Shown: in pieces, positions 1 through 10,505 of the stretch
How the letters are laid out: every line of letters begins with the position of its first letter
Position numbering within the stretch: the stretch's first letter is position 1
The notes under the pieces: model-generated
The model's database searches: none
What the model was told of the DNA's origin: nothing
Seen by the model: the letters and a program-made list of their open reading frames with translations, nothing else
Position numbers and translations under genes: made by a program
Origin: Nitrospirota bacterium
GTDB taxonomy: Bacteria > Nitrospirota > Nitrospiria > Nitrospirales > Nitrospiraceae
Reading direction: 5' to 3'
Length of the DNA stretch: 10,505 nucleotides
Assembly (NCBI GenBank): GCA_004296865.1
Contig: SCVQ01000236.1
Span: forward strand, 1 to 10,505

Positions 1-2
1 CC

Positions 3-911
3 GGCCTCCCGGCTCCGCAGACCTTGGTCCTGGCCATGCGGCAGGGAGGGGGCGGTGGGAGCCTCGCTCCGGCCAAGCCGGCGGTCAAGACTTACCAGTT
101 CGACGATGTGGATCAGGTCCCCGTGGCGGCAGCCGGATTCCAACGTCCCCAGACCCACCTCATCGCCGTTGGTATCAGTGCCTACCGGGACCCGCAGATC
201 CCGGCGCGGAAATACGCCGCACGGGATGCGGAACTCGTGGCCGCCTACTTCCAGTCGGTGGGAGGCGTGCCGGCCGCCAACCTGCGCGTCTTGCAGGACC
301 GCAAGGCCTTGCGGCCGGACATCGAGGAGGCGCTTTTCGATTGGCTGCCGACGCGCGTGACCGCGGAGTCCACCGTCATCCTGTACTTCTCGGGTCAGGC
401 GCTGGTTGGACCGTCCGGCGAGACCTATCTGGTGCCCTATGAAGGCAGCGGCACGTCGGCGTCACGCCTCTACCCTCTCAAGGACATCCAGGCTGCGCTG
501 GCCAAGCTGAAGGCCCGCCACACCCTCCTCATCTTTGACGGCGCGGTGGGACAGCTCGGCAAGAACGGGCGATCGAAGCCGGCGGCGCCGCTGTGGGACA
601 GCGGGGGAGGGAATCTCGTCAAGCTCATCGGGACCACCGGCCTCCGCTCAGGCCTCGAACCGGCACAGATGCGACACGGGCTCTTTACGTATTACCTGTT
701 GAGTGGGCTGAAAGGCGAGGCGGATGCCGACCATAACGGGGAAGTCACGCTGGGCGAACTGGCGACCTTTCTGAATCAGACAGTGCCGGTTGCCGCAAGG
801 AGCCACTTCAACCAGGAGCAGCGCCCCCTGGTCTTGCCGCCCCTCTCGCCGACGAACACGATGGCCGCCCTGCCCCTGACCAGAACCGCAGCCCAGGCCA
901 ACAGCCGATAA
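3..911 (+). CDS. Caspase-fold (peptidase C14-like) protein, C-terminal part, likely catalytically inactive; 5' end outside window
   Basis: The frame is open to the left edge, so this is the C-terminal part of a longer protein. A TTG at 24 and an ATG at 36 are internal candidates but have no convincing ribosome site. Numbering residues from the TTG, the caspase-like fold begins at about residue 44 (HLIAVGISAYRD), followed by the KYAARDAELVAAYF helix. Strand VILYFSG (118-124) should end in the catalytic His of an SGHG motif, but reads SGQA (Gln125). Strand TLLIFDG (167-173) should carry the catalytic Cys of DACFSG, but reads DGAVGQ (Ala174). The later HGLFTYYLLSGL segment (218-229) is typical of bacterial C14 proteins. 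An EF-hand-like loop follows at 234-245. The fold is therefore retained while both catalytic residues are absent. I infer a regulatory, scaffolding or binding role. The gene ends 30 bases before a terminator hairpin. Confidence 0.8.
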   Translation, partial: GLPAPQTLVLAMRQGGGGGSLAPAKPAVKTYQFDDVDQVPVAAAGFQRPQTHLIAVGISAYRDPQIPARKYAARDAELVAAYFQSVGGVPAANLRVLQDRKALRPDIEEALFDWLPTRVTAESTVILYFSGQALVGPSGETYLVPYEGSGTSASRLYPLKDIQAALAKLKARHTLLIFDGAVGQLGKNGRSKPAAPLWDSGGGNLVKLIGTTGLRSGLEPAQMRHGLFTYYLLSGLKGEADADHNGEVTLGELATFLNQTVPVAARSHFNQEQRPLVLPPLSPTNTMAALPLTRTAAQANSR

Positions 912-941
912 GTTCAGACTTCAGGAACCGGACGACGACAA

Positions 942-978
942 AAAAAGGCAGAGGGGAGAACATCCCCTCTGCCTTTTT
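942..978. terminator. Bidirectional rho-independent terminator between convergent genes
   Basis: A perfect 10-bp GC-rich stem, GGCAGAGGGG (947-956) with CCCCTCTGCC (964-973), encloses a 7-base loop. It is flanked by an A tract (941-946) and a T tract (974-978), which extend the pairing by 5 A-T pairs. It therefore has a U-tract when read from either strand. It lies 30 bases after the caspase-fold gene stop and 28 bases after the stop of the oppositely oriented cytochrome gene, so it most likely terminates both. Confidence 0.93.
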
Positions 979-1006
979 AACACAGATTCTCGTCAGCGAT
1001 CGAAAA

Positions 1007-1456
1007 CTACTCGGCAGCCTTGCAGAAGCTCCGCTCGTAGTTGATGATCGTCCAGGCTTCTTCTTCGTTGATCGCGGCAGGAATGAGGGGCACCATACCG
1101 GTGCCGGCGCTGCCATTCTTGATCACCCAGAACAGCTCGCCGTCCTTCCGCTTCTTGTGGAATTTGCAATTCGTGAAGTCCCGCGGGCTCGGGTTCAGGA
1201 TCTGGCCGGCCGGGCCATTGCCCTTGCCTTCCTTGCCATGGCAGTTGAAGCAGGTGCCCTTGCCCTCGAACAACGCCTTCCCCTTGGCGATATTCTCCGG
1301 GGTGTTCGCGACCGGGTTCTTCATGGCCTTCGCATCGGCGATCTGGTCAGCCGGCACTCTCGGCTTCAGCGGATCCCTCTCCTCAGCCACAGCGACGGTG
1401 GCGGTGACGAACATCAGCGCGGCCAAGAGGCCGATCGACTTAGGAACATACCGCAT
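1007..1456 (-). CDS. Secreted class I monoheme cytochrome c
   Basis: A 149-residue periplasmic electron carrier. The start at 1456 is chosen because a near-perfect Shine-Dalgarno site sits 5 bases upstream and the protein then begins with a classical signal peptide (residues 1-24, MRYVP..., hydrophobic core, likely cut after AVA). An in-frame ATG at 1492 would place the ribosome site inside the gene. The heme attachment motif is CFNCH (Cys69, Cys72, His73), followed by GKEGKGNGPAG. Met121 in GSAGTGMVPL is the likely sixth heme ligand. Two further cysteines (97 and 145) may form a disulfide that ties the C-terminal helix to the middle of the domain. The gene has its own promoter and shared terminator, so it is probably a separate transcript. 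The redox partner cannot be told from the window; no oxidase or reductase subunit lies nearby. Confidence 0.92.
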   Translation of the reverse strand: MRYVPKSIGLLAALMFVTATVAVAEERDPLKPRVPADQIADAKAMKNPVANTPENIAKGKALFEGKGTCFNCHGKEGKGNGPAGQILNPSPRDFTNCKFHKKRKDGELFWVIKNGSAGTGMVPLIPAAINEEEAWTIINYERSFCKAAE

Positions 1457-1461
1457 CACAG

Positions 1462-1470
1462 CTCCTCCTT
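1462..1470 (-). promoter_or_regulatory. Strong ribosome binding site of the cytochrome c gene
   Basis: Read on the - strand this is AAGGAGGAG, 5 bases before the ATG at 1456. It decides the start in favour of 1456 over the in-frame ATG at 1492. It is preceded by a T7-A6 run (1471-1483) that forms a near-perfect AT palindrome next to the site. Confidence 0.85.
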
Positions 1471-1523
1471 TTTTAAAAAAACCGAACTTCATAATGAAGA
1501 CCGGCGTCCCCCAAGGCGGCCGA

Positions 1524-1553
1524 AATATAGCAACGCCTCCTCCCGCTTGTCAA
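1524..1553 (-). promoter_or_regulatory. Sigma70-type promoter of the cytochrome c gene
   Basis: On the - strand there is a perfect -35 box TTGACA (1548-1553), an 18-base spacer, and a -10 box TATATT (1524-1529), one mismatch from consensus. Transcription would begin near 1517, giving a leader of about 60 bases before the ATG at 1456. A second TTGACA lies at 1559-1564, eleven bases further upstream, but has no -10 box at the right distance. This is the best promoter match that I noticed by eye in the window. Confidence 0.72.
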
Positions 1554-1625
1554 GGACATGTCAAAACGCCCCCAAGTGGCCGTATTGCCCATCCGCCTAG
1601 CTCCTCCCACAGTCTTGACGGCCCC

Positions 1626-2489
1626 CTATGCCGACGCCAGACGGCGCAGCAGGCCGTCAAGTAGCGCCGCCACCGAATCCGCCCGGCTCTCGGCCACGGC
1701 CACCACCTGGGGGTGGCCGACGCGACCGTCCAGCGCCGCGCCGGACCGATTCGTAATCAGAGCCAGCCCCAGCACGCGCAGCTTGAGCGCGCGGGCCACG
1801 ATCACCTCCGGCACGACGGACATGCTGACGGCTTGCGCCCCCAACCGCCGGAGCATCTCCGCCTCCGCTGCGGTTTCGTAGGTCGGCCCGGCCACCGCCG
1901 CCAGAACCCCGCGGCGGATGGACAGGCCCGACGCCCCGGCCACCTGCTCGGCAATCTCGAGGAGCGCCGGATCGTAGGCCTGGGCCATTTCGACAAACCC
2001 GGATACCCTGATCCCGCTCCGCCCCGCCGGCGCTCCCTTTGCCGGCCCCGTTCTCATGAGAGGATTGTCGCCCATCAAGTTCAGATGATCTTCGATCAAC
2101 ATGAGCGTCCCCGCCTCGGCCTCGTCAAGCGACCCGGCGGCACAGGTGACGATGAGCGTCCGCACCCCCAATGCGGCCAGCACCGCGACGGGATGGGTCA
2201 CGGTGGCAAGCGCCACGCCTTCGTAGCGATGTGCCCGACCCTGCAAAATGGCCACGCAGGCCCCCTCGCGCTCCGTCAGGACCAATCGGCCGGCATGTCC
2301 TTCCACCGAACAGACGGGAAACCCGGGGATGTCCGCGTAAGGGATTGCCGCAAGAATCGGGGGACGCTCGGCAAAACTTCCCAAGCCTGAACCAAGGATG
2401 ATGCCGACGGCTGGACGGGCGGGCAATCGCGCGCGCAGGTATTCGACGGCCTGCGTGACCACATCGTGCGGGGGAAGCGACTCCGTCAT
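1626..2489 (-). CDS. punA: Purine nucleoside phosphorylase, trimeric PNP/MTAP family
   Basis: A 287-residue cytoplasmic enzyme of purine salvage that splits (deoxy)guanosine and inosine with phosphate into base and (deoxy)ribose-1-phosphate. Landmarks match human/PunA-type PNP. GSGLG (33-37) and QGRAHRYEG (83-91) supply phosphate and ribose ligands (Ser34, Arg85, His87, Tyr89). GPTYET (201-206) holds the purine-binding Glu205. VSMSVVPEVIVA (221-232) holds Met223 and Ser224. LITN (244-247) holds Asn247, the residue that makes trimeric PNPs prefer 6-oxopurines. His259 matches the ribose 5'-OH ligand. Deviations from the family are Ser for Gly before Met223 and Cys116 in place of the usual Asn before AAG. 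The start is forced because an in-frame stop lies two codons upstream of the ATG, yet there is no good Shine-Dalgarno. The gene follows rodZ with a 78-base gap. Gene symbol is by family analogy. Confidence 0.9.
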   Translation of the reverse strand: MTESLPPHDVVTQAVEYLRARLPARPAVGIILGSGLGSFAERPPILAAIPYADIPGFPVCSVEGHAGRLVLTEREGACVAILQGRAHRYEGVALATVTHPVAVLAALGVRTLIVTCAAGSLDEAEAGTLMLIEDHLNLMGDNPLMRTGPAKGAPAGRSGIRVSGFVEMAQAYDPALLEIAEQVAGASGLSIRRGVLAAVAGPTYETAAEAEMLRRLGAQAVSMSVVPEVIVARALKLRVLGLALITNRSGAALDGRVGHPQVVAVAESRADSVAALLDGLLRRLASA

Positions 2490-2531
2490 GAATTACTGAA
2501 CACGTGTGACCGGGCCGGCCTTCACAACCAT

Positions 2532-2549
2532 TGCCTCACGTGCCTCACG
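2532..2549. repeat. Two direct copies of a 9-base TCAC-containing unit between rodZ and the PNP gene
   Basis: TGCCTCACG occurs twice in tandem (2532-2540 and 2541-2549) in the 78-base gap. It shares the TCACG core with the heptamer arrays at 5217-5248 and 7213-7259. Nearby CACGTGTGAC (2501-2510) carries the same core in inverted form. The rest of the gap shows no clear promoter or terminator. Confidence 0.6.
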
Positions 2550-2567
2550 CCCAAGAACAGGGGCCGC

Positions 2568-3521
2568 TCACCGTTTGAGTAGGATGTCGCGGGCGACTTT
2601 TCCGCTCGGGCCGAATGGCCCTTGCGGTTTTCCATTGAGTTCGACACGGACCCCACCGGCATTGCCAAGGGTCAGCATGAAGCGGTCCGTCGCCGTCCAT
2701 CTCATCCGTTCTCCCGGACGGAGCAGCGCCTCGTGGGGGCTGGCGCCATCCACTTGCACGACCACCCAACTCACTTCGGTCGCTTCAAGATCCAACGCCA
2801 AGGGAGCCTCACGGCCTCCCCTCCCGTCCGAAGGCAATCCTCCCAAGGGTTCGCTCGAGGAGGACGCCAAGGGAACGGACTCGACCGGCTTGGCCGCAGA
2901 GCCCCCGGCCGGCTCCGGCGTCGCGGGAGCGGGATGGCTGTCTGCAGCGCCCGAGGGCGGCGCATGCTCCGTTCGTTCAGCCCCATGCCCCCCCATGGAG
3001 GGTTCCTGAGACGGCCGTGGAGCCGGTGTCCCCGTGCTGCCCGGCACGGCCTTCCCGGTGGAAGGCGGCAGGGCCTTCGTCGAGGACTGCGGTTCCACCA
3101 CCTGACGGCTCGGCGCGACGGCGGACTGCTCACGGTTCAAGAGCAAGATCAACCCGAGCACGGCCACCGCCGCCGCCGCGATCACCACCTTGCGATTGGC
3201 TTGTTTGCGCCGCTCATCCTCGAGCTGCCTCACCCGCAGACGATCCAGTTCCGACTGCTTGTTGTAGAATACCCCTGCCGACTCCACGAAGCGGCGCATG
3301 GCATCTTCTTCGTCCAAGCCCAAGGACCTGGCATAGGACCGCACGAACCCCTTGGCGAACACTTGTTCCGGCAGTTTGGCGAAGTTGCCTTCTTCGAGGG
3401 CCTTGAGGAAGTCCGGATGGATGCGGGTCTTGGAAGCCACCTCATCCACGGTCAAGCCTTTGGTCTCGCGGACCTGTCTGAAAAAATCGCCGACGGATTC
3501 GTTTTCCATAGTGATAGCCAT
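2568..3521 (-). CDS. rodZ: RodZ-like transmembrane HTH protein (HTH_25, DUF4115)
   Basis: A 317-residue bitopic membrane protein with the RodZ/YmfM architecture. A cytoplasmic Xre-type HTH domain occupies residues 8-80 (VGDFFRQVRETKGLTVDEVA, then the diagnostic GFVRSYARSLGLDEED). A basic juxtamembrane segment (92-111) precedes a single membrane helix at about 111-128. A long Pro/Ser/Gly-rich linker (about 132-238) follows, then a C-terminal beta-rich DUF4115 domain (239-317). RodZ anchors MreB to the membrane in rod-shaped bacteria; that role here is inferred from the family. The start at 3521 lies 3 bases after the pilF stop, with AGGGG almost touching it. An ATG at 3509 has the same AGGGG 12 bases upstream and is the alternative. 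The tight spacing indicates translational coupling to pilF. Confidence 0.88.
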   Translation of the reverse strand: MAITMENESVGDFFRQVRETKGLTVDEVASKTRIHPDFLKALEEGNFAKLPEQVFAKGFVRSYARSLGLDEEDAMRRFVESAGVFYNKQSELDRLRVRQLEDERRKQANRKVVIAAAAVAVLGLILLLNREQSAVAPSRQVVEPQSSTKALPPSTGKAVPGSTGTPAPRPSQEPSMGGHGAERTEHAPPSGAADSHPAPATPEPAGGSAAKPVESVPLASSSSEPLGGLPSDGRGGREAPLALDLEATEVSWVVVQVDGASPHEALLRPGERMRWTATDRFMLTLGNAGGVRVELNGKPQGPFGPSGKVARDILLKR

Positions 3522-3524
3522 CCC

Positions 3525-4205
3525 CTAGTGCTTCAACCGTTCCAGTAACTTCTCCGCCTCGGCTGCGTATGGCCCATCCTTGTCCAGTTCGGCCACCCGC
3601 GTCAGCATCTCACGTGCCTTGGCATCATACCCCAACCGGTAATAGGCCCGGCCGAGTTCGAGATGGACCATCCCCGACGGCACGTTGGGGGGACTGACCA
3701 ACAACGCGTCCTCGAGCGCTTGAGCGGCGCCGTTCATGTCGCCTTCATGGGCCAAGGCCCGCCCCAAATTAAACCACGCGACGTCCGGGGTCGCGTAGAG
3801 CGGGTTGTTCAGCGCCCGCCGGTAGGCGCGGATGGCCTCCTGCCAGCGATCCTGCTGCGCGAGCACCTGTCCCAAATACGCATGGGCTTCCGAATACTCC
3901 GGACTGATCCGCAGGACCGTCCGGAACTGCTCTTCGGCCAGCTGGTACTTGCCCTGCATGGCGTAGATGTGCCCCACATAGTAATGCGCATCCCGGTGGC
4001 CGGGGTCTTCCTGGATCGCCTTCTGGAACGAAACGAAGGCCTCCTGGCGATTGCCGTCCAGATTGGCCACGCCCTCCCGATAATACCCGTCGGCCTTCTT
4101 CAGCTTTTCCTCGGCCGTGCACCCGATCATCACGCACACAAGACAGCCGACCAGGGCCCAGCGGGGCGCGCGCGACCGTCCGACGATTCCCCTCACGACG
4201 GTCAT
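3525..4205 (-). CDS. pilF: PilF/PilW-type TPR lipoprotein
   Basis: A 226-residue exported TPR protein. From the ATG at 4205 it has a basic N-terminus and a hydrophobic stretch ending in a lipobox-like MIGC (Cys29), so it is probably lipid-anchored. The rest is about five TPR-like repeats from residue 38 to 225. The sequence NPLYATP (134-140) is a signature I associate with PilF/PilW, the lipoprotein that promotes PilQ secretin assembly in type IV pili. Neighbour rodZ supports this: pilF-rodZ are adjacent in gammaproteobacteria. The stop of the upstream kinase gene is 4 bases before this ATG, and no Shine-Dalgarno is evident, which suggests coupled translation. A TTG at 4226 is in frame and would overlap the kinase gene; I prefer the ATG because the signal peptide then has normal length. 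No pilus gene is visible here, so a general outer-membrane TPR role remains possible. Confidence 0.82.
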   Translation of the reverse strand: MTVVRGIVGRSRAPRWALVGCLVCVMIGCTAEEKLKKADGYYREGVANLDGNRQEAFVSFQKAIQEDPGHRDAHYYVGHIYAMQGKYQLAEEQFRTVLRISPEYSEAHAYLGQVLAQQDRWQEAIRAYRRALNNPLYATPDVAWFNLGRALAHEGDMNGAAQALEDALLVSPPNVPSGMVHLELGRAYYRLGYDAKAREMLTRVAELDKDGPYAAEAEKLLERLKH

Positions 4206-4209
4206 GCGA

Positions 4210-5124
4210 TTAGACAAGGTCCTCAAAATGCGTCAGCCGCTTGAATTCGCGGAAGCGGGCCTCGATCTCTTTGTAGTCGAGCGCGCGCAGACGGTCGAGG
4301 CTGAAGGCCTCCACCGTAAACGAAGCCATGACGCTGCCAAAAATGATGGCCTGGCGGATGCCCTCGTCCGACAAGTTTCCGGTCGCCCCCAGGTAGCCCA
4401 TGAAGCCCCCCGCAAAGGTATCGCCGGCCCCGGTGGGGTCCTTCACTTCCTCCAACGGAAAGGCCGGGGCCCCGAAAGTCTGCTTGCGGTTGAACAGCAG
4501 GACTCCGTATTCCCCCCGCTTGACGATGAGATGCTTCGGCCCCTTCGCCAGGATGTCCTTGGCGACCTGAACGAGGTTGGAATGCCCGCCGAGCGCGCGC
4601 GCTTCCCCGTCGTTGATCACCAGCACGTCCACTTCCTTGAGCGTCCGCCAGAGCGCCTCCCGTTTCCCCTCGATCCAGAAATTCATCGTATCACAGGCGA
4701 CCAGTTTTGGACGATGCACCTGCCGCAAGACGTCGAGCTGCAACTCCGGATCGATGTTGCCCAAAAACAGCAGGTCGGGGGAACGGTACTGCTCGGGAAT
4801 CTTGGGCCGGAAGGTTTCGAACACGTTCAAACGGGTATCGAGCGTGTGGGCCTCGTTCAGTTGGTGGGTGTACTCCCCCTTCCAGCGGAACGTCTCCCCC
4901 TTCCGCCGCTCGAGCCCCGCCAGGTCGATGCCGCGGCTCTTGAGAAACTTCAGGTGCGGCTCCGGAAAATCCTCTCCCACAACCGCGATCAGGTCCACCT
5001 CCGTGAAGTAACTGGCGGCGGTCGCAAAATAGGTTGCCGACCCGCCCAGTACTTCGCTGGCTTCCCCGAAGGGAGTCCGGACCGTATCCAGCGCGACCGA
5101 CCCCACGACCAGCAGCTTCCCCAT
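4210..5124 (-). CDS. PfkB-family (ribokinase-like) sugar or nucleoside kinase
   Basis: A 304-residue cytoplasmic kinase. The start at 5124 fits the domain start (MGKLLVVGSVALDTV) and has AAGG 8 bases upstream; an in-frame GTG at 5181 would add 19 residues encoded by repeat sequence and is unlikely. PfkB landmarks are GGSATYFA (27-34) near the substrate site and DPTGAGDTFAGGF (229-241), which holds the anion hole and catalytic base Asp235. The middle carries ACDTMNFWIEGKRE (143-156) and INDGEARALGG (170-180). The family phosphorylates sugars or nucleosides with ATP; the substrate cannot be read from the sequence. It lies directly after mtnP and two genes before a purine nucleoside phosphorylase, which makes a product of nucleoside or methylthioadenosine salvage a reasonable guess. 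Adenosine, ribose or an unrelated sugar are all possible. Confidence 0.87.
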   Translation of the reverse strand: MGKLLVVGSVALDTVRTPFGEASEVLGGSATYFATAASYFTEVDLIAVVGEDFPEPHLKFLKSRGIDLAGLERRKGETFRWKGEYTHQLNEAHTLDTRLNVFETFRPKIPEQYRSPDLLFLGNIDPELQLDVLRQVHRPKLVACDTMNFWIEGKREALWRTLKEVDVLVINDGEARALGGHSNLVQVAKDILAKGPKHLIVKRGEYGVLLFNRKQTFGAPAFPLEEVKDPTGAGDTFAGGFMGYLGATGNLSDEGIRQAIIFGSVMASFTVEAFSLDRLRALDYKEIEARFREFKRLTHFEDLV

Positions 5125-5151
5125 TCCTACTACCTTTCCGTTAAACGTTGC

Positions 5152-5190
5152 TCGTGAAACGTGACGTGTTTGGAAGCACACGTTTCACGA
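5152..5190. repeat. 12-bp perfect inverted repeat just upstream of the kinase gene
   Basis: TCGTGAAACGTG (5152-5163) and CACGTTTCACGA (5179-5190) are perfect complements separated by 15 bases. An alternative inner pairing, ACGTGT (5165-5170) with ACACGT (5178-5183), also exists. The arms share the GTGA/TCAC core of the heptamer family. The element ends 27 bases upstream of the kinase start codon at 5124. It lacks a T-run, so it is not a typical terminator. It could be an operator, an mRNA hairpin, or simply a product of repeat turnover. Confidence 0.75.
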
Positions 5191-5216
5191 CGGTTTCGCC
5201 TGCCATTGTATACTCA

Positions 5217-5248
5217 TCACGCTTCATGCACGACGCGTCACGCCTCAC
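5217..5248. repeat. Degenerate 7-base repeat array overlapping the mtnP stop codon
   Basis: On the + strand TCAC-like cores recur every 7 bases at 5217 (TCAC), 5224 (TCAT), 5231 (CGAC), 5238 (TCAC) and 5245 (TCAC). On the - strand this reads as CGTGANN units. The last codons of mtnP (Asn-Arg-Glu-Ala-stop) lie inside the array, and its TGA stop is part of the unit at 5238. The array continues into the 113-base gap before the kinase gene. No clear promoter is seen in that gap; TATACAAT on the - strand near 5208 lacks a -35 box. Confidence 0.7.
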
Positions 5249-6125
5249 GGTTTTTCAGGTGCCGGGCCAGCAACAGGCCCAGACGTTTGCGCGTCGCCTG
5301 CGGAATCGCTTGCGGCGCAGTCAGGACGGCGTGCTCCAGCGCCGTCGCGCAGAGGCAGGCCCTCGGCTCCGCCGCCACCGACAACGCAGCCCGGATGATG
5401 CGCTTGGCCAGCGCCACATTGTTCTTGAGCGTGGCGATGATCGCGTCCACCGAGACCGACTCCTCCGTGGCATGCCAGCAGTCATAGTCCGTCGGGAGCG
5501 CCAGCGTGGCGTAACACACTTCCGCTTCCCGGGCCAGCTTGGCCTCGGGCAGATTGGTCATCCCGATCACATCCACTTCCCACCGGCGATAGAGCAGCGA
5601 CTCCCCGCGGCTCGAAAATTGGGGGCCTTCGATGCAGAGGTAGACTCCGCCGCGATGGACCATGACGCCGGCGCCCTGAGCCGCCTTGAACAAGGCCCCC
5701 GACAACCGCGAGCAGATCGGGTCGGCAAACGCCACGTGCGCGACGACGCCCTGTTCGAAAAAGGTCCCAATCCGGCGCTTGGTCATGTCGATAAATTGGT
5801 CGGGCAGCAACACGTCGCCCGGCCTCACAGCCTCCTTCATGCTCCCCACCGCGCTCACGGAAATGATCCGCGTCACCCCCACCGACTTCAACGCGTAGAT
5901 ATTCGCCCGATAGTTGATCTCGCTCGGCGTGATTCGATGGCCGCGTCCATGCCGCGAGAGAAACGCCACCTTCACGCCGTCGATCGTGCCCAAGATCAGG
6001 GCATCCGACGGCCGTCCGAAGGGCGTCGCGGGGCGGACTTCCCGCACCCGCTCCAAGCCTTCCATTTCGTAGAGGCCGCTCCCCCCGATGATCCCGATCT
6101 CTGCTTGCGCTCGTCGTATTGCCAT
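5238..6125 (-). CDS. mtnP: S-methyl-5'-thioadenosine phosphorylase (MTAP)
   Basis: A 295-residue cytoplasmic enzyme that converts 5'-methylthioadenosine plus phosphate into adenine and methylthioribose-1-phosphate, the first step of methionine and adenine salvage from polyamine or other SAM-consuming reactions. Family motifs run in order: IGIIGGSGLY (10-19), RHGRGH (58-63), PSEINYRANIYA (67-78), SAVGS (91-95), CIEGPQFSSRGE (164-175), DVIGMTN (185-191) with ribose-contacting Met189, and TDYDCWH (212-218). Asp213 and Asp215 correspond to the adenine-specifying aspartates of MTAP and separate it from the PNP at 1626-2489. The ATG at 6125 has GGAG 5 bases upstream. It follows miaA after 41 bases and precedes the PfkB kinase gene. 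The last codons and stop lie in a heptamer repeat array, so the extreme C-terminus may vary between strains. Activity on 5'-deoxyadenosine is also possible. Confidence 0.93.
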   Translation of the reverse strand: MAIRRAQAEIGIIGGSGLYEMEGLERVREVRPATPFGRPSDALILGTIDGVKVAFLSRHGRGHRITPSEINYRANIYALKSVGVTRIISVSAVGSMKEAVRPGDVLLPDQFIDMTKRRIGTFFEQGVVAHVAFADPICSRLSGALFKAAQGAGVMVHRGGVYLCIEGPQFSSRGESLLYRRWEVDVIGMTNLPEAKLAREAEVCYATLALPTDYDCWHATEESVSVDAIIATLKNNVALAKRIIRAALSVAAEPRACLCATALEHAVLTAPQAIPQATRKRLGLLLARHLKNREA

Positions 6126-6166
6126 CGTCGCTCCGCACGGCTCCTTTCTCGCTACGCCTCCGGTCG

Positions 6167-7198
6167 TTACCCCGCCGCCACCGCCGTCTTTTCGTCGCCA
6201 CAGCCGACCCGCGTGGACAAGCCCGCGAGAAACTGTTTCACCAGGTCCAGGAGCCTGACCGACACCTTTTCCAAGGACTCCTGATCGCCGATTTCCATCC
6301 AGGTCACCCCCGGCTCTTTGCGAAACCAGGTCATCTGGCGCTTCGCGAAATGGCGGGTGTCCCGTTTGAGCAGCCGGACCGCCTCCTCATAGGGATAGTC
6401 CCCGGCCAGGTATCCTGCGATCTGCCGATACCCAAGCCCCTTCATGGAACCCCGGTCCCGCCCGTAGCCCTTCTCCAACAGTCCACGGGTTTCCTGGACC
6501 AATCCCTTGGCCAACTGCTCGTCAACCCGCTCGTCGATCCGCCGATAGAGTGCGGCGCGGTCCCTCGTCAGGCCGATCAGCAAGGAGGCAAACGGGGTTT
6601 CGGCAAAGGCGTGACGGCGGTGCGACTCCGACAGCGGATGGCCTGAGAGATGATGCACTTCCAAGGCCCGGATGATCTTCACATGGTCGTGGGGATGCAG
6701 CCGTTCGGCCGACTCCGGATCGACGCGAGCCAGCTCATGGTGGAGATACTCCGCTCCATTCACACGCGCTTCACCGACCAGCCGTTCACGAAAGCTCCAA
6801 TCGGCCGGGGGGCCGTTCCACAAGCCATGCAGCAACGTCCTGACGTAGAGGCCGGTCCCTCCGACCACCAAGGGAATTTTGCCTTGGCCGTACAGACGCT
6901 CGATCTCACGCAGGGCCTGCCGCCGGTACGCCCCCACATTGAACGGCTGATCCGGCTCCACCAGGTCGATCAACCGGTGCGGCACGCCCAGTCGTTCCTC
7001 CAGGCTCGGCTTATCCATCCCGATGTCCATGCCGCGATAGACCTGCCGGGAATCGGCCGTGAGCACGTCGGTGCCCAGGACTTTCGCCAGCAAGACAGCG
7101 ACCCGGCTCTTTCCGACCGCCGTCGGTCCCACCAGGGCGATCAGCGGCCTCAGAGAAGTGACCAGTGACACGTGACGGGTAACAGGTGCCTGGCTCAT
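6167..7198 (-). CDS. miaA: tRNA dimethylallyltransferase
   Basis: A 343-residue cytoplasmic enzyme that transfers a dimethylallyl group to N6 of A37 in tRNAs reading UNN codons. Visible motifs are the P-loop GPTAVGKS (24-31), ADSRQVYRGMDIG (48-60) with catalytic Asp49, VVGGTGLY (111-118) with Thr115 near the target adenine, KIIRALEVHHLSGHPLS (174-190), and RHFAKRQMTWFRKE (282-295) for tRNA contact. The usual GTAKP after the second motif reads GMDKP, a mild deviation. The ATG at 7198 is preferred, with a purine-rich GAAGAAGAG upstream; a GTG at 7237 is in frame and would add 13 residues. Residues 5-15 (PVTRHVSLVTS), before the P-loop domain, are encoded by a heptamer repeat array. The gene follows mutL, as in enterobacteria, after a 57-base gap. 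Confidence 0.95.
   Translation of the reverse strand: MSQAPVTRHVSLVTSLRPLIALVGPTAVGKSRVAVLLAKVLGTDVLTADSRQVYRGMDIGMDKPSLEERLGVPHRLIDLVEPDQPFNVGAYRRQALREIERLYGQGKIPLVVGGTGLYVRTLLHGLWNGPPADWSFRERLVGEARVNGAEYLHHELARVDPESAERLHPHDHVKIIRALEVHHLSGHPLSESHRRHAFAETPFASLLIGLTRDRAALYRRIDERVDEQLAKGLVQETRGLLEKGYGRDRGSMKGLGYRQIAGYLAGDYPYEEAVRLLKRDTRHFAKRQMTWFRKEPGVTWMEIGDQESLEKVSVRLLDLVKQFLAGLSTRVGCGDEKTAVAAG
7158..7189. repeat. Heptamer repeat array inside the 5' coding region of miaA
   Basis: On the + strand GTGA-like cores recur every 7 bases at 7158, 7165, 7172 (all GTGA), 7179 (GTAA) and 7186 (GTGC). It is translated within miaA as residues of an N-terminal extension before the conserved P-loop strand. 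Its orientation is opposite to that of the array at 7213-7259, so the two arms can pair around the miaA start codon. Confidence 0.75.
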
Positions 7199-7212
7199 GC
7201 TTCGCTCTTCTT

Positions 7213-7259
7213 CCACATCCGACTCGTCACTCCTCACGCATCACCCGTCACGATCTCAC
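7213..7259. repeat. Heptamer repeat array at the mutL-miaA junction, overlapping the mutL stop
   Basis: On the + strand TCAC-like cores recur every 7 bases at 7213 (CCAC), 7220 (CGAC), 7227, 7234, 7241 and 7248 (all TCAC), then once more at 7256 with an 8-base step. The TGA stop of mutL (7256-7258) is part of the last unit, and a possible GTG start of miaA (7235-7237) lies in another. GTGACGGGT (7172-7180) and ACCCGTCAC (7243-7251) form a 9-bp perfect inverted repeat between the two arrays. Confidence 0.78.
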
Positions 7260-9121
7260 GCCCGACCGAAAATCTTGGCCAACTCGTTTGCTGGAAAGCG
7301 AAGCGCGATGCGACGGCCATGCGGGCACGTCATCGGCAAGCCTTCTTCGACCCAGTCCTCGATCAACTGCTTGCTTTCCGCCAGGTCCATCGCGCGGCCC
7401 GCCCGGACAGCCGAATGACAGGCCAGCGAAGCCAAGACGGGCCTGACGCGCACGTCGAGGGAAGACGCGGCATTCCACTCCGACAGGTCGTCCAAGAGGT
7501 CCTGCAGCAACGCCGGATAGTCCAGGTGGCCGAGCAAAGCCGGCACCGCGCGAATCACGAACGCGGAGGCGCCGAACGGTTCGATCACGAGGCCCAGCTT
7601 CTCCAGGTCGCTCACGTGTCGCTGGAGCAGCGCGGCTCCATGAGGCGGCAGCTCGACCGGCTCCGCGATGAGCAAGGGCTGCGACGCCACCCCCTGCGTC
7701 AGCCAAGCCCGCCACAAGCGCTCGAACAAGACCCGTTCATGCGCGGTGTGCTGATCGATCACCTGCAATTCCGATCCGACCTGCGCGACCAGAAACGTGC
7801 GGCTCACCTGCCCCAACGGAACGACCTCGCTGCCGACCCCAGGTCGATAGGTCTGCAGCGGTTCGTAAAGCCCCGGCGCTTCAGCCGGATCGGCGCTGGC
7901 GGACCCGCCCGCTATCCCTTGGGACAGGGCCATCTGTCTGGCGCCTCTCGCCCAGTCGTAGTCCGACCTGGGGGCCGCCGACGAAAGGCTCTGCCCCTCC
8001 CCAACCAGCCACCCTGCCGGCCTGCCCGAGCCGGCCCAGGCCTCATGCGACCCGGCCAAGCCGGACGACGCGTCTGCCATCGACCCGGCGGCCCGACCGT
8101 CCATCGGCGCCGACGCCTGCCCACCCAATGCCCCCCTGATCGCCTGTCGCACCGTCTGATGGACCAAGTCCTGATCGGCAAACCGGACTTCGCGTTTCGT
8201 CGGATGCACATTGACGTCAACCCGCTCCGGATCCACTTCCAGAAACAGCACGTAGCGGGGATACCGTCCTTTGGCAAGGAATGAGCCATAGCCATCGGAG
8301 ACCGCATGGGCGACCGTCGCATTCTTGACCGCCCGGCGATTGACGAACAACTCCTGGGGGGTCCGTCCCGCCCGCGTCTGCGCTGCATCGACCGTCACGC
8401 CCTCGAGGCGCAGGCCTGGCCGCTCAGCCCGGACCTCCACCATGTGTGCCATCACCTTCATGCCATAGACCTGGAGCATGCGGTCCCGACTCGATGAGAC
8501 GGCGGCATAGTCGAACACCTCTTGCCCGTTGTGCTTGAGCCGAAACTGCACCAGCGGCCAAGCCAGGGCCGCCTGCTGGACCACCTGACAGATGTGAGAG
8601 AACTCGGTCGCCGCCGACTTCAAAAACTTCTTGCGGGCCGGCGTATTGAAGAACAGGTCCGCCACTTCGATCTGCGTCCCCGGAGCCGCCGCCGACTCTT
8701 CCGCCGCAGTGACGGCACCGACCGTCACCCGCACCGAGGTACCGACCGGCTCGTGCCGGCAAGCCGTGACCAGCCGGACCTTCGAGACCGCCGAGATGCT
8801 GGGCAACGCTTCGCCGCGAAACCCCAGGGTCTTGATCGACCAGAGATCCTGCTCGGAGCGCAACTTGCTCGTGGCATGGCGCTGGAAGGCCAACTGGGCA
8901 TCGCTCCGCCCCATGCCCTCGCCGTCATCCGTGACCTTGATCAGCCCGCGCCCGCCGTCGGTCACCTCAACCGTGATCCGGCGGCTCTCGGCATCCAGGC
9001 TGTTGTCGATCAATTCCCGCACCACGGCAGCCGGCCGTTCCACCACTTCGCCGGCGGCAATACGGCTGACCAGGTCGCCCGGCAAGACCCGGATTTTCCC
9101 AAGGCTGCTCGCCACGCTCAT
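7256..9121 (-). CDS. mutL: DNA mismatch repair protein MutL, endonuclease type
   Basis: A 621-residue cytoplasmic mismatch-repair ATPase that links MutS recognition to strand incision. The N-terminal GHKL ATPase domain shows RIAAGEVVERP (20-30), RELIDNSLDA (35-44) with catalytic Glu36 and Mg-binding Asn40, DDGEGM (65-70), RHATSKL (81-87) and TLGFRGEALPSISAVS (98-113), followed by VDVNVHPTKREVRF (301-314). A low-complexity Gly/Ala/Ser linker (about 335-430) leads to the dimerisation domain. There the metal-binding endonuclease motif is DQHTAHERVLFE (456-467), with Thr where Ala is usual. ACHSAVRA (567-574) and CPHGR (599-603) complete the nuclease site. These motifs imply nicking by MutL itself, as in bacteria without MutH. 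The ATG overlaps the cpoB stop in ATGA, so translation is coupled. Confidence 0.97.
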   Translation of the reverse strand: MSVASSLGKIRVLPGDLVSRIAAGEVVERPAAVVRELIDNSLDAESRRITVEVTDGGRGLIKVTDDGEGMGRSDAQLAFQRHATSKLRSEQDLWSIKTLGFRGEALPSISAVSKVRLVTACRHEPVGTSVRVTVGAVTAAEESAAAPGTQIEVADLFFNTPARKKFLKSAATEFSHICQVVQQAALAWPLVQFRLKHNGQEVFDYAAVSSSRDRMLQVYGMKVMAHMVEVRAERPGLRLEGVTVDAAQTRAGRTPQELFVNRRAVKNATVAHAVSDGYGSFLAKGRYPRYVLFLEVDPERVDVNVHPTKREVRFADQDLVHQTVRQAIRGALGGQASAPMDGRAAGSMADASSGLAGSHEAWAGSGRPAGWLVGEGQSLSSAAPRSDYDWARGARQMALSQGIAGGSASADPAEAPGLYEPLQTYRPGVGSEVVPLGQVSRTFLVAQVGSELQVIDQHTAHERVLFERLWRAWLTQGVASQPLLIAEPVELPPHGAALLQRHVSDLEKLGLVIEPFGASAFVIRAVPALLGHLDYPALLQDLLDDLSEWNAASSLDVRVRPVLASLACHSAVRAGRAMDLAESKQLIEDWVEEGLPMTCPHGRRIALRFPANELAKIFGRA

Positions 9122-9924
9122 CGCAGTTCGGCCAATTTGCCCTTGGCCAGCTTGGCCTCGGGGGACGTGGGATATTCCTCGATCACCCGCTTCAAAAACG
9201 CGCGGGCCTTGAGGACATCCCCGCCTTCGACCGCCGTCACGCCCACCTTGAACAGGGCCGGTGCGACCTTCTCGCCCTTCGGATACTCGTTGATGACTCG
9301 CTCAAAGGATTGAGCCGCCCGCGTGAAGTCTTTGGTGCCGTAATAGGACTCGCCCAGGAAGTACAACGCATCGGCGGTTTTGGCGGTCGACGGGAAATCG
9401 TTCAGGAACCGCTGGAACCCCTCGATCGACATCGCATAACGACCTTCCATGTAGTCATTGTAAGCCAGGTTGTAGGCCGAGGTCGGGCTGATACTGGGCG
9501 TCCCAGGCATCATGGGAGGCGGCTCGGGCAGAGAAGGCAACCTGGCCGGCTTGGACTGACGCGACGGCTCGCCGTCGGGCAGATCGCTCGCAGCCGGGGC
9601 CACCGGATAGGTCTCCGAGCGACGAGCCAACCGGCCCTCCAATTCCTTGAACCGATCTTCGAGCTGTTGCATGCGCAGCCGGAGACTGTCGATGTCCTTC
9701 GACTCCCGCCCCGACGGCTTGGCCTCCAACTTCGCCTCGAGAGACTTGATCCGATTCTGGATCCCTTCGTCCCGTTCGCGGTCCTGCTCCTGAGCCTTGA
9801 CGACATCGCGAAGGTCATTCCGCAAATCTACGAAGTCGGCATGCATGGCGCAGCCCGTAGAGGCCGCCGCCAACACCGCACACATGAAGAAACAGGCTCG
9901 AGGAAATCGATCGGTCCTGTGCAT
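9118..9924 (-). CDS. cpoB: CpoB/YbgF-like Tol-Pal-associated TPR lipoprotein
   Basis: A 268-residue exported protein. From the ATG at 9924 a signal sequence ends in a lipobox-like STGC (Cys25), so it is probably lipid-anchored, unlike the soluble periplasmic E. coli CpoB. A charged coiled-coil region follows (33-67 and 76-103), then a Pro/Ser-rich linker (106-147). A C-terminal domain of three TPRs (149-267) carries the YbgF pattern: AYNLAYNDYMEGRYAMSIEGF, ALYFLGESYYGTKDF, then AKLAKGKLAELR at the end. CpoB connects outer-membrane constriction by Tol-Pal with septal peptidoglycan synthesis; that role is inferred from the family. AGG lies 7 bases upstream of the ATG, inside the end of the preceding gene, whose stop is 4 bases away. 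The stop overlaps the mutL start. A longer in-frame start near 10053 would run through the preceding gene and is rejected. Confidence 0.87.
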   Translation of the reverse strand: MHRTDRFPRACFFMCAVLAAASTGCAMHADFVDLRNDLRDVVKAQEQDRERDEGIQNRIKSLEAKLEAKPSGRESKDIDSLRLRMQQLEDRFKELEGRLARRSETYPVAPAASDLPDGEPSRQSKPARLPSLPEPPPMMPGTPSISPTSAYNLAYNDYMEGRYAMSIEGFQRFLNDFPSTAKTADALYFLGESYYGTKDFTRAAQSFERVINEYPKGEKVAPALFKVGVTAVEGGDVLKARAFLKRVIEEYPTSPEAKLAKGKLAELR

Positions 9925-9928
9925 AGTC

Positions 9929-10505
9929 TTACCTGGGTTGCTTGAGTTGCGCCAACTTATCCAAGGCCTTGTCGGCCTCGGGGCTCTTGGGATAAGCATC
10001 CACGACCTGCCGCAGCGCCGCCGAGGCGCGCCCGCTGTCTTTGAGCGCCGCATACGCGAACCCTTTTTTCAACAACGCGGCCGGCACTTTCTCGCTCGTC
10101 GGATACATCAGCTTGACGCGATCGTACGCGTCGATCGCCCGCGCGTACTCCTTGTTCCCATAGTAGCATTCCCCCATCCAGTACTGCGCGTTGGACGCCA
10201 ATTCGGAGGTCGGATGTTGCGCGAGGAACTGGGAGAAGCCCTGCAACGCGCCGCTCAAATCTCCCCGTTTGAATTTCTGCATGGCACGGTCGTAGTCCTC
10301 GCGTGGGTTGGAGGACGCCGGACCTGCCGCCCCGGGTTGAGCGCGCTCCGGCCGTGCAGCCCCGGCCGATTCCTGCACCGACGCCTCGGCCGATCCTGAG
10401 GCGGCTTGAACCGGTTGCGCGGCCGACTTCGCCGACTCCTCGTCGGACAATGCCGCATCCGGCTGCGACGGCGCCTCCGGCCTTGCGACCAGGCGCGGCG
10501 CCTTG
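9929..10505 (-). CDS. Second CpoB/YbgF-like TPR protein, C-terminal part; 5' end outside window
   Basis: The frame is open to the right edge (191 residues visible), so the N-terminus is missing; a TTG at 10450 is only an internal codon. The first ~65 visible residues form a Pro/Ala/Ser/Glu-rich linker without predicted fold. A three-TPR domain follows (EDYDRAMQKFKRGDLSGAL, AQYWMGECYYGNKEYARAI, then KALDKLAQLKQ near the end) and closely parallels the C-terminal domain of the next gene. The two look like tandem paralogues. The stop lies 4 bases before the cpoB start, so the pair is probably co-translated. Whether it starts with a signal peptide, lipobox or another domain, and whether tolB or pal lie upstream, cannot be seen. 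Confidence 0.8.
   Translation of the reverse strand, partial: KAPRLVARPEAPSQPDAALSDEESAKSAAQPVQAASGSAEASVQESAGAARPERAQPGAAGPASSNPREDYDRAMQKFKRGDLSGALQGFSQFLAQHPTSELASNAQYWMGECYYGNKEYARAIDAYDRVKLMYPTSEKVPAALLKKGFAYAALKDSGRASAALRQVVDAYPKSPEADKALDKLAQLKQPR

Follow-up and report, generated by a model that had tools for sequence, protein, structure and literature searches.

A caspase-fold domain without a catalytic dyad at the C-terminal end of a conserved lipoprotein-type protein in one Nitrospirota family

Introduction

Pseudo-orthocaspases are a named class, and its prokaryotic members keep the S1 aspartates, as described in the main text of Klemencic et al. 2019 (PMC6426788), where the string 'Nitrospir' has 0 occurrences. 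For the Nitrospirae, Asplund-Samuelsson et al. 2012 (PMC3501461) give a Cys–His conservation of only 57% among metacaspases, so that C14 proteins of this phylum lacking the dyad had already been counted in 2012. Here, we describe such a protein from a Nitrospirota bacterium of the family Nitrospiraceae, encoded at the start of contig SCVQ01000236.1 of GenBank assembly GCA_004296865.1 (positions 1 to 10,505, forward strand). This whole stretch of 10,505 nucleotides is referred to as the window; its source contig (G000:C122 in our numbering) belongs to an assembly of 2.7 Mb in 613 contigs, and the genome is 96% complete. The contig begins inside the gene, and the 5' part is therefore absent from the window. 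We find a real pseudo-caspase in a conserved family, a caspase fold with neither the catalytic dyad nor a cysteine. This domain makes up the C-terminal part of a lipoprotein-type protein conserved in one Nitrospirota family.

Caspase fold with both dyad positions replaced

The identity of the domain as a pseudo-caspase, proposed in a first-pass annotation made from the letters of the window, is backed by alignment, predicted structure, tree and conservation. The PF00656 profile (peptidase C14) matches the window domain at 24.6 bits, above its curated cut-off of 21.4; the closest ortholog, at 20.7 bits, falls just under that cut-off, and matches at E up to 5 were obtained in 35 of the 48 members of our set A1. 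The predicted model of the window domain has a caspase fold, with the MALT1 paracaspase as its best fold match (14% identity). For NF047832 (EACC1-associated caspase) the domain stays below the threshold, scoring 48.1 bits against an NCBIfam cut-off of 140.

The first-pass annotation had read SGQA, with the codon CAG, and DGAVGQ, with the codon GCG, in place of the usual dyad motifs; codons and residues are as it gave them, and alignment with homologs retaining the His–Cys dyad (H/C) sets both codons on the dyad columns. The Cys column is further tied to Cys276 of the yeast metacaspase Yca1: profile A3, built from 13 H/C-intact relatives (L093, L091 and L081 left out), matched Yca1 both as wild type and as C276A, and in its alignment the column holds Cys in the wild-type chain and Ala in the mutant chain. 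PDB sequence searches with the window open reading frame (ORF) or with profile A2 gave zero matches, and the link to known residues runs through A3. The earlier dyad numbers, 125 and 174, were counted from a TTG at position 24 that is not the true start because the gene begins on another contig; in the open frame they become residues 132 and 181. The HGLFTYYLL segment is unbroken, as had been claimed. With Gln132, Ala181 and zero Cys in the window ORF, the protein does not qualify as an active C14 peptidase or metacaspase, and an alternative His and Cys in catalytic geometry, named in the annotation as the finding that would speak against it, is absent.

The window ORF and the C-terminal end of a 735-codon frame in an ortholog from another genome (L002) share 87% identity. 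This ortholog carries the same Q/A pair, which makes a sequencing error very unlikely and upholds the earlier argument to that effect. A decaying pseudogene or an assembly error might be suspected from the split of the gene across two contigs and from a match in another genome of the family (G006) that lies in a 250-codon frame only; we give this explanation a negligible probability, as most relatives have long frames, the same residues stand in a second genome, the expected neighbors are present on both contigs, and the ratio of nonsynonymous to synonymous substitution rates (dN/dS) between the window and L002 is 0.15 (NG86; 0.09 by YN00; 301 codons). Other pairs give dN/dS values of 0.18–0.24 (NG86), and the pseudo-caspase gene is under purifying selection.

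Conserved loss and retained residues

Homolog counts below refer to the 120 listed of 406 found, 119 of them informative at the dyad (P0062 stops short). The His column holds Q in 73, L in 29, H in 14, E in 2 and D in 1, and the Cys column S in 39, I in 27, A in 21, G in 16, P in 6, T in 6, V in 3 and M in 1, with Cys in 0. The suggestion that Gln and Ala might mark a conserved subfamily thus stands for the loss of the dyad but not for the residues that replace it. Counting the window, Cys is absent from 117 of 120 domains and occurs once in each of the other 3. The family fits two marks of pseudo-orthocaspases, a class also described as lacking a p10 domain by the p10 profile of PMC6426788: it has a p20-like domain without the His–Cys dyad, and it keeps the S1-pocket aspartates. 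It does not show the Tyr/Ser pair of the cyanobacterial YS pseudo-orthocaspases, since the window has Q/A and Tyr occurs in the His column in 0/119. Ser at the Cys position in 39 homologs might point to an active enzyme using a different nucleophile; yet Ser and His occur together in only one of the 119, the window combines Gln with Ala, and both positions are variable, so that we regard such an enzyme as highly improbable.

Ranked by conservation across the window family, the dyad positions come 218th (Cys) and 154th (His) of 234, whereas Asp75 is kept in 119/120 and Asp179 in 120/120. In Yca1 and AtMC4, the residues aligned with these two are the Asp of the NDA/NDV motif and the Asp of the DSC motif, which we take to be the same positions as the S1-pocket aspartates of TbMCA2 and MALT1. 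According to PMC4357240, the latter, Asp95 and Asp211 in TbMCA2 and Asp365 and Asp462 in MALT1, belong to the S1 pocket that accepts a basic P1 residue. Asp241 and Glu252 of an EF-hand-like loop, invariant in the family (Table 1), are each present in only 4/7 of the intact relatives compared, and Trp198 is common to the window type and to a paralogous group with R/S at the dyad positions but missing from the same seven.

Across the 245 genomes of the phylum sampled, 62 belong to the family of the window, a total assuming that none of the 151 unlisted no-match genomes among them belongs there (the no-match rows that were listed are all more distant). A close match (E 1.2e-63 or better, identity at least 46%) occurs in 57 of the 62, counted by similarity, the dyad not having been read in all. 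G212 has two close matches, and one more genome besides the 57, G194, has a partial window-type copy with Q/M. Outside the family, 12 of 183 genomes have a match with an E value of 1e-30 or less, in no case lower than 7.2e-55, and the four of these matches that were read are all H/C. No genome of another family of the same order, here called f2, is among the rows listed for the 245-genome sample; three f2 genomes (L116, L117 and L118) carry dyad-less, or dead, forms with N/S, S/A and N/S.

A loss shared by three clades

Our main tree comprised 61 hand-picked caspase-like domains from which the dyad and adjacent columns had been removed. Three dead clades, namely the window type, the R/S or R/T paralog and the f2 form, fall into one clade of 33 rows (support 99/94), the sister of which comprises 17 rows, all H/C (91/89); the branching order among the three is not resolved (83/18). 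The minimum number of dyad-state changes is 2, one for this dead clade and one for a separate TPR-type clade, where His is kept and Cys lost. A 68-row tree concurs (43 dead rows, 98/94). We set the root on the TPR-type group, where long branches meet and were flagged in both trees. Left out were L029, L037 (partial), L039 (the window), the duplicates L040, L041, L042, L046 and L049, second ORFs in L064 and L050, ten of the 29 loci L081–L109 and all but six of the 120 homologs; the 68-row tree additionally lacks 19 long or redundant rows. The dyad loss is common to the window type and its two sister clades, most simply as one ancestral loss. The group thereby offers a natural experiment in which catalysis was lost, most simply once, the fold and pocket were then long conserved, and H/C-intact relatives survive in the sister clade.

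The R/S- or R/T-type paralog, of similar architecture, was found at L072:970-3453 (G000:C70), L007, L013–L017, L019–L023 and L025–L028; its replaced dyad is almost fixed, unlike that of the window type, and a UbiA-like prenyltransferase gene (named by eye) adjoins it in 7 loci. A second dead family (L001, that is G000:C272:3143-3817, and L100–L103) has kept His, and its Cys is replaced by Gly, Ala or Pro; L001 contains TPR repeats.

Architecture of the whole protein

The missing 5' part, which the first-pass annotation thought might define the role, was read from orthologs and partly from contig C259 of the same genome. Frames measured stop to stop span 614–773 codons in most of 30 orthologs, the shorter ones being G032 (356), G005 (535) and the window. 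The order in the orthologs read is a signal with a lipobox-like Cys, a domain of ~180 residues, a CARDB/NEW3-like immunoglobulin-like (Ig-like) domain and the caspase fold; the Ig-like domain reaches E 3e-5 in its best member and lies mostly below curated cut-offs. C259 ends within the 147-residue start of the gene, 81% identical to the L002 protein, and ~210 residues are lost between it and C122.

A PROSITE-type lipobox pattern (PS51257 core) was found in 80/120 sequences, in 102/120 when a variant also allowing Trp at −2 was used and in 53/120 with a stricter pattern; some of the remaining sequences look N-terminally cut. For the N-terminal domain, a PqiC/DUF330-like identity is a lead from the predicted model, the DUF330 protein 2iqi_B being a single such match among the 50 listed (Foldseek E 1.1e-5, TMt 0.59), and the PqiC/DUF330 family is absent among 25 of the 28 Pfam families matched by 48 members. 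Fold matches of the full-length model are taken up by the caspase domain, so other N-terminal folds are possible.

Caspase-like partners in the same genomes

The first-pass annotation offered the domain as a decoy or scaffold for real metacaspases or as a binding module for another partner. A c-FLIP-like regulator would be a dead domain that pairs with an active C14 paralog and restrains or activates it, and candidates for such a paralog exist in related genomes: among the matches of a PF00656 search of 24 genomes including that of the window, 29 C14 loci (L081–L109, 30 ORFs) were read for the dyad and were H/C in 25/29 and of the TPR type without Cys in 4/29. Moreover, in G025 the cytochrome gene separates an H/C-intact caspase-like protein (L119:3049-3873 and 5004-6788) from its dead counterpart. 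In 5/24 genomes (G000, G004, G007, G026 and G036), however, the TPR type was the sole PF00656 match. Since the weak domain of the window itself had escaped that search, a second one was run on the five genomes with an H/C-intact relative; 0/16 matches were intact. In G000 itself, where the caspase-like matches are the window (Q/A), C70 (R/T) and C272 (H/G), 0/3 have the dyad and none has Cys, so that these matches, from a genome 96% complete, offer no active partner of the kind a c-FLIP-like role calls for; assemblies across the set are listed as 96–100% complete, which leaves some room for an unseen caspase. The arrangement in G025 does not recur generally; the dead domain could act as a regulator there, but this is unlikely to be its general function, and overall we rate the regulator role as improbable. 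A decoy or scaffold for the cell's own metacaspases is thus unlikely and finds no support in G000, and the reading we favor is a module that binds another partner.

Beyond this comparison, one of the 16 matches is a further dyad-less caspase-like protein with Q/P in a 516-codon frame (L133/L139; G007:C7:285022-285669). G012 and G020 have 15 PF00656 matches each, and L097:1303-3474, from G002 of the window's genus, joins an intact caspase domain and an FGE-sulfatase domain in one protein.

Proposed role

We consider it probable that the domain is a non-cleaving binding module of the cell envelope, part of a conserved lipoprotein-type protein. The signal suggests that the protein is exported and probably membrane-anchored, and the Ig-like and N-terminal domains would place the dead caspase in the periplasm or on a membrane, where it would serve the envelope as a binding or scaffolding component without enzymatic activity. 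The caspase cleft keeps a possible Ca2+ loop and the acidic residues lining S1, which in metacaspases and paracaspases form the Arg/Lys pocket; it would therefore most likely hold, but not cleave, a basic peptide or a basic stretch of protein. A more specific proposal, which we advance tentatively and hold to be rather doubtful, is that this lipoprotein family made the caspase a periplasmic reader of Arg/Lys-bearing peptides or protein ends: after the loss the dyad would have drifted freely, and the specificity pocket and calcium loop would have been held constant, as the site through which a sensor or adaptor binds its ligand.

Several observations weigh against the favored binding module. 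The two aspartates may be retained for folding rather than binding, and His225, Trp198 and Glu219 are as invariant as they are; Glu takes the place of Asp179 in two R/S paralogs (L115 and L123). In homolog P0075 the catalytic His position is still His, and a Cys stands immediately before the Cys column; 13/15 R/S paralogs have two Cys elsewhere in the domain. Export is read from a sequence pattern, and the neighboring genes are divergent or convergent and form no operon with the gene, so they do not name a partner. The invariance of those three residues, together with that of Asp241 and Glu252, would also fit a purely structural spacer, in which the caspase fold serves as a stable domain and its acidic residues serve folding or calcium binding; both S1 aspartates are nonetheless held while the adjacent dyad positions vary freely, and we judge the spacer unlikely. 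The natural experiment described above makes it possible to test what bacterial pseudo-caspases do by way of a single gene in a nitrogen-cycle lineage. It also shows that annotation as C14 or 'caspase family' does not by itself mean a cell-death protease.

Features of the window and gene neighborhood

Feature coordinates are collected in Table 1. At the 5' edge, a strand at residues 360–367 of the ortholog model P0001 corresponds to about window residues 6–13, the Pfam Ig range stopping upstream of it, and the model of the window ORF has pLDDT 45–58 over residues 1–30.

Table 1. Positions of the pseudo-caspase gene, its parts and an adjoining gene in the window
Feature	Position	Strand	Basis
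3' part of pseudo-caspase lipoprotein gene, 302 codons + stop	3..911	+	open at 5' edge
Probable Ig-like domain end and low-confidence linker, residues 1-36	3..110	+	ortholog model, pLDDT
Caspase-fold domain, residues 46-295	138..887	+	PF00656 over residues 55-275; fold alignment 46-295
Asp75 at metacaspase S1-pocket Asp position (TbMCA2 Asp95 type)	225..227	+	alignment; Asp in 119/120
Gln132 (CAG, in SGQA) at catalytic His position	396..398	+	alignment with H/C-intact homologs
Asp179 at second S1-pocket Asp position (TbMCA2 Asp211 type)	537..539	+	alignment; Asp in 120/120
Ala181 (GCG, in DGAVGQ) at catalytic Cys position	543..545	+	alignment with H/C-intact homologs, Yca1
HGLFTYYLL segment, residues 225-233	675..701	+	unbroken; its His225 in 120/120
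EF-hand-like loop DADHNGEVTLGE, residues 241-252	723..758	+	Asp241, Glu252 each 120/120; Pfam EF-hand E 0.14 only
Convergent c-type cytochrome gene, member of conserved synteny	1007..1492	-	Pfam, neighborhood comparison

Gene neighborhoods show stable chromosomal synteny rather than a mobile defense island. A divergent carbamoyltransferase-family gene is present in 10 of the 11 window-type loci with an upstream flank and in 2/4 additional loci; at the eleventh, ORF picking gave an overlapping frame in its place. Beyond it lies a gene of ~500–565 codons, membrane-like by eye, in 11/11 loci, and a family-2 glycosyltransferase in 7/11, some of the others being short contigs. On the other side, the c-type cytochrome gene is convergent in 9 of these loci as well as in the window. 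Pfam gave no name for L074:6847-8541 (membrane-like), L074:11192-11998 or the gene adjoining the C70 paralog. Farther along, the window carries a housekeeping region with two nucleoside phosphorylase-type genes, at 1626-2489 and 5238-6125 (-), near RodZ, PfkB-, MiaA- and MutL-like genes; the first nucleoside phosphorylase-type gene and RodZ were confirmed by Pfam, the others named by eye.

Comparison with known systems

With bacterial pseudo-orthocaspases, as the main text of PMC6426788 presents them, the window shares a p20-like domain that lacks the His–Cys dyad and keeps two S1 aspartates. The cyanobacterial members described there mostly have Tyr/Ser and no other domain. In contrast, the window family has mostly Gln or Leu at the His position and eight different residues at the Cys position, and its domain stands behind a lipoprotein-type signal, an N-terminal domain and an Ig-like domain. 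The Nitrospirae metacaspases of PMC3501461 come as a count, and no family, tree or locus for them was seen there.

The nearest intact relatives, from Desulfobacterota and Elusimicrobia (L008–L012, L018 and L024) and from other families of the phylum (L110–L113), are 36–40% identical and, unlike the window, carry SGHG or AGHG and DSCFSG. L012, the sole intact relative scanned with Pfam, has CARDB domains, and the N-terminal regions of L012 and L024 differ by eye from that of the window family. MALT1, the best fold match, likewise has a caspase domain adjoining an Ig domain and an acidic S1 pocket, but it is an active human protease and not a secreted lipoprotein. Our literature searches for a lipoprotein pseudo-caspase, or for CARDB with caspase or Nitrospir, gave nothing on point among the entries listed. 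As far as the literature searched shows, the new elements are the lipoprotein architecture, the shared loss, and the combination of a dyad left free to vary with a pocket held fixed.
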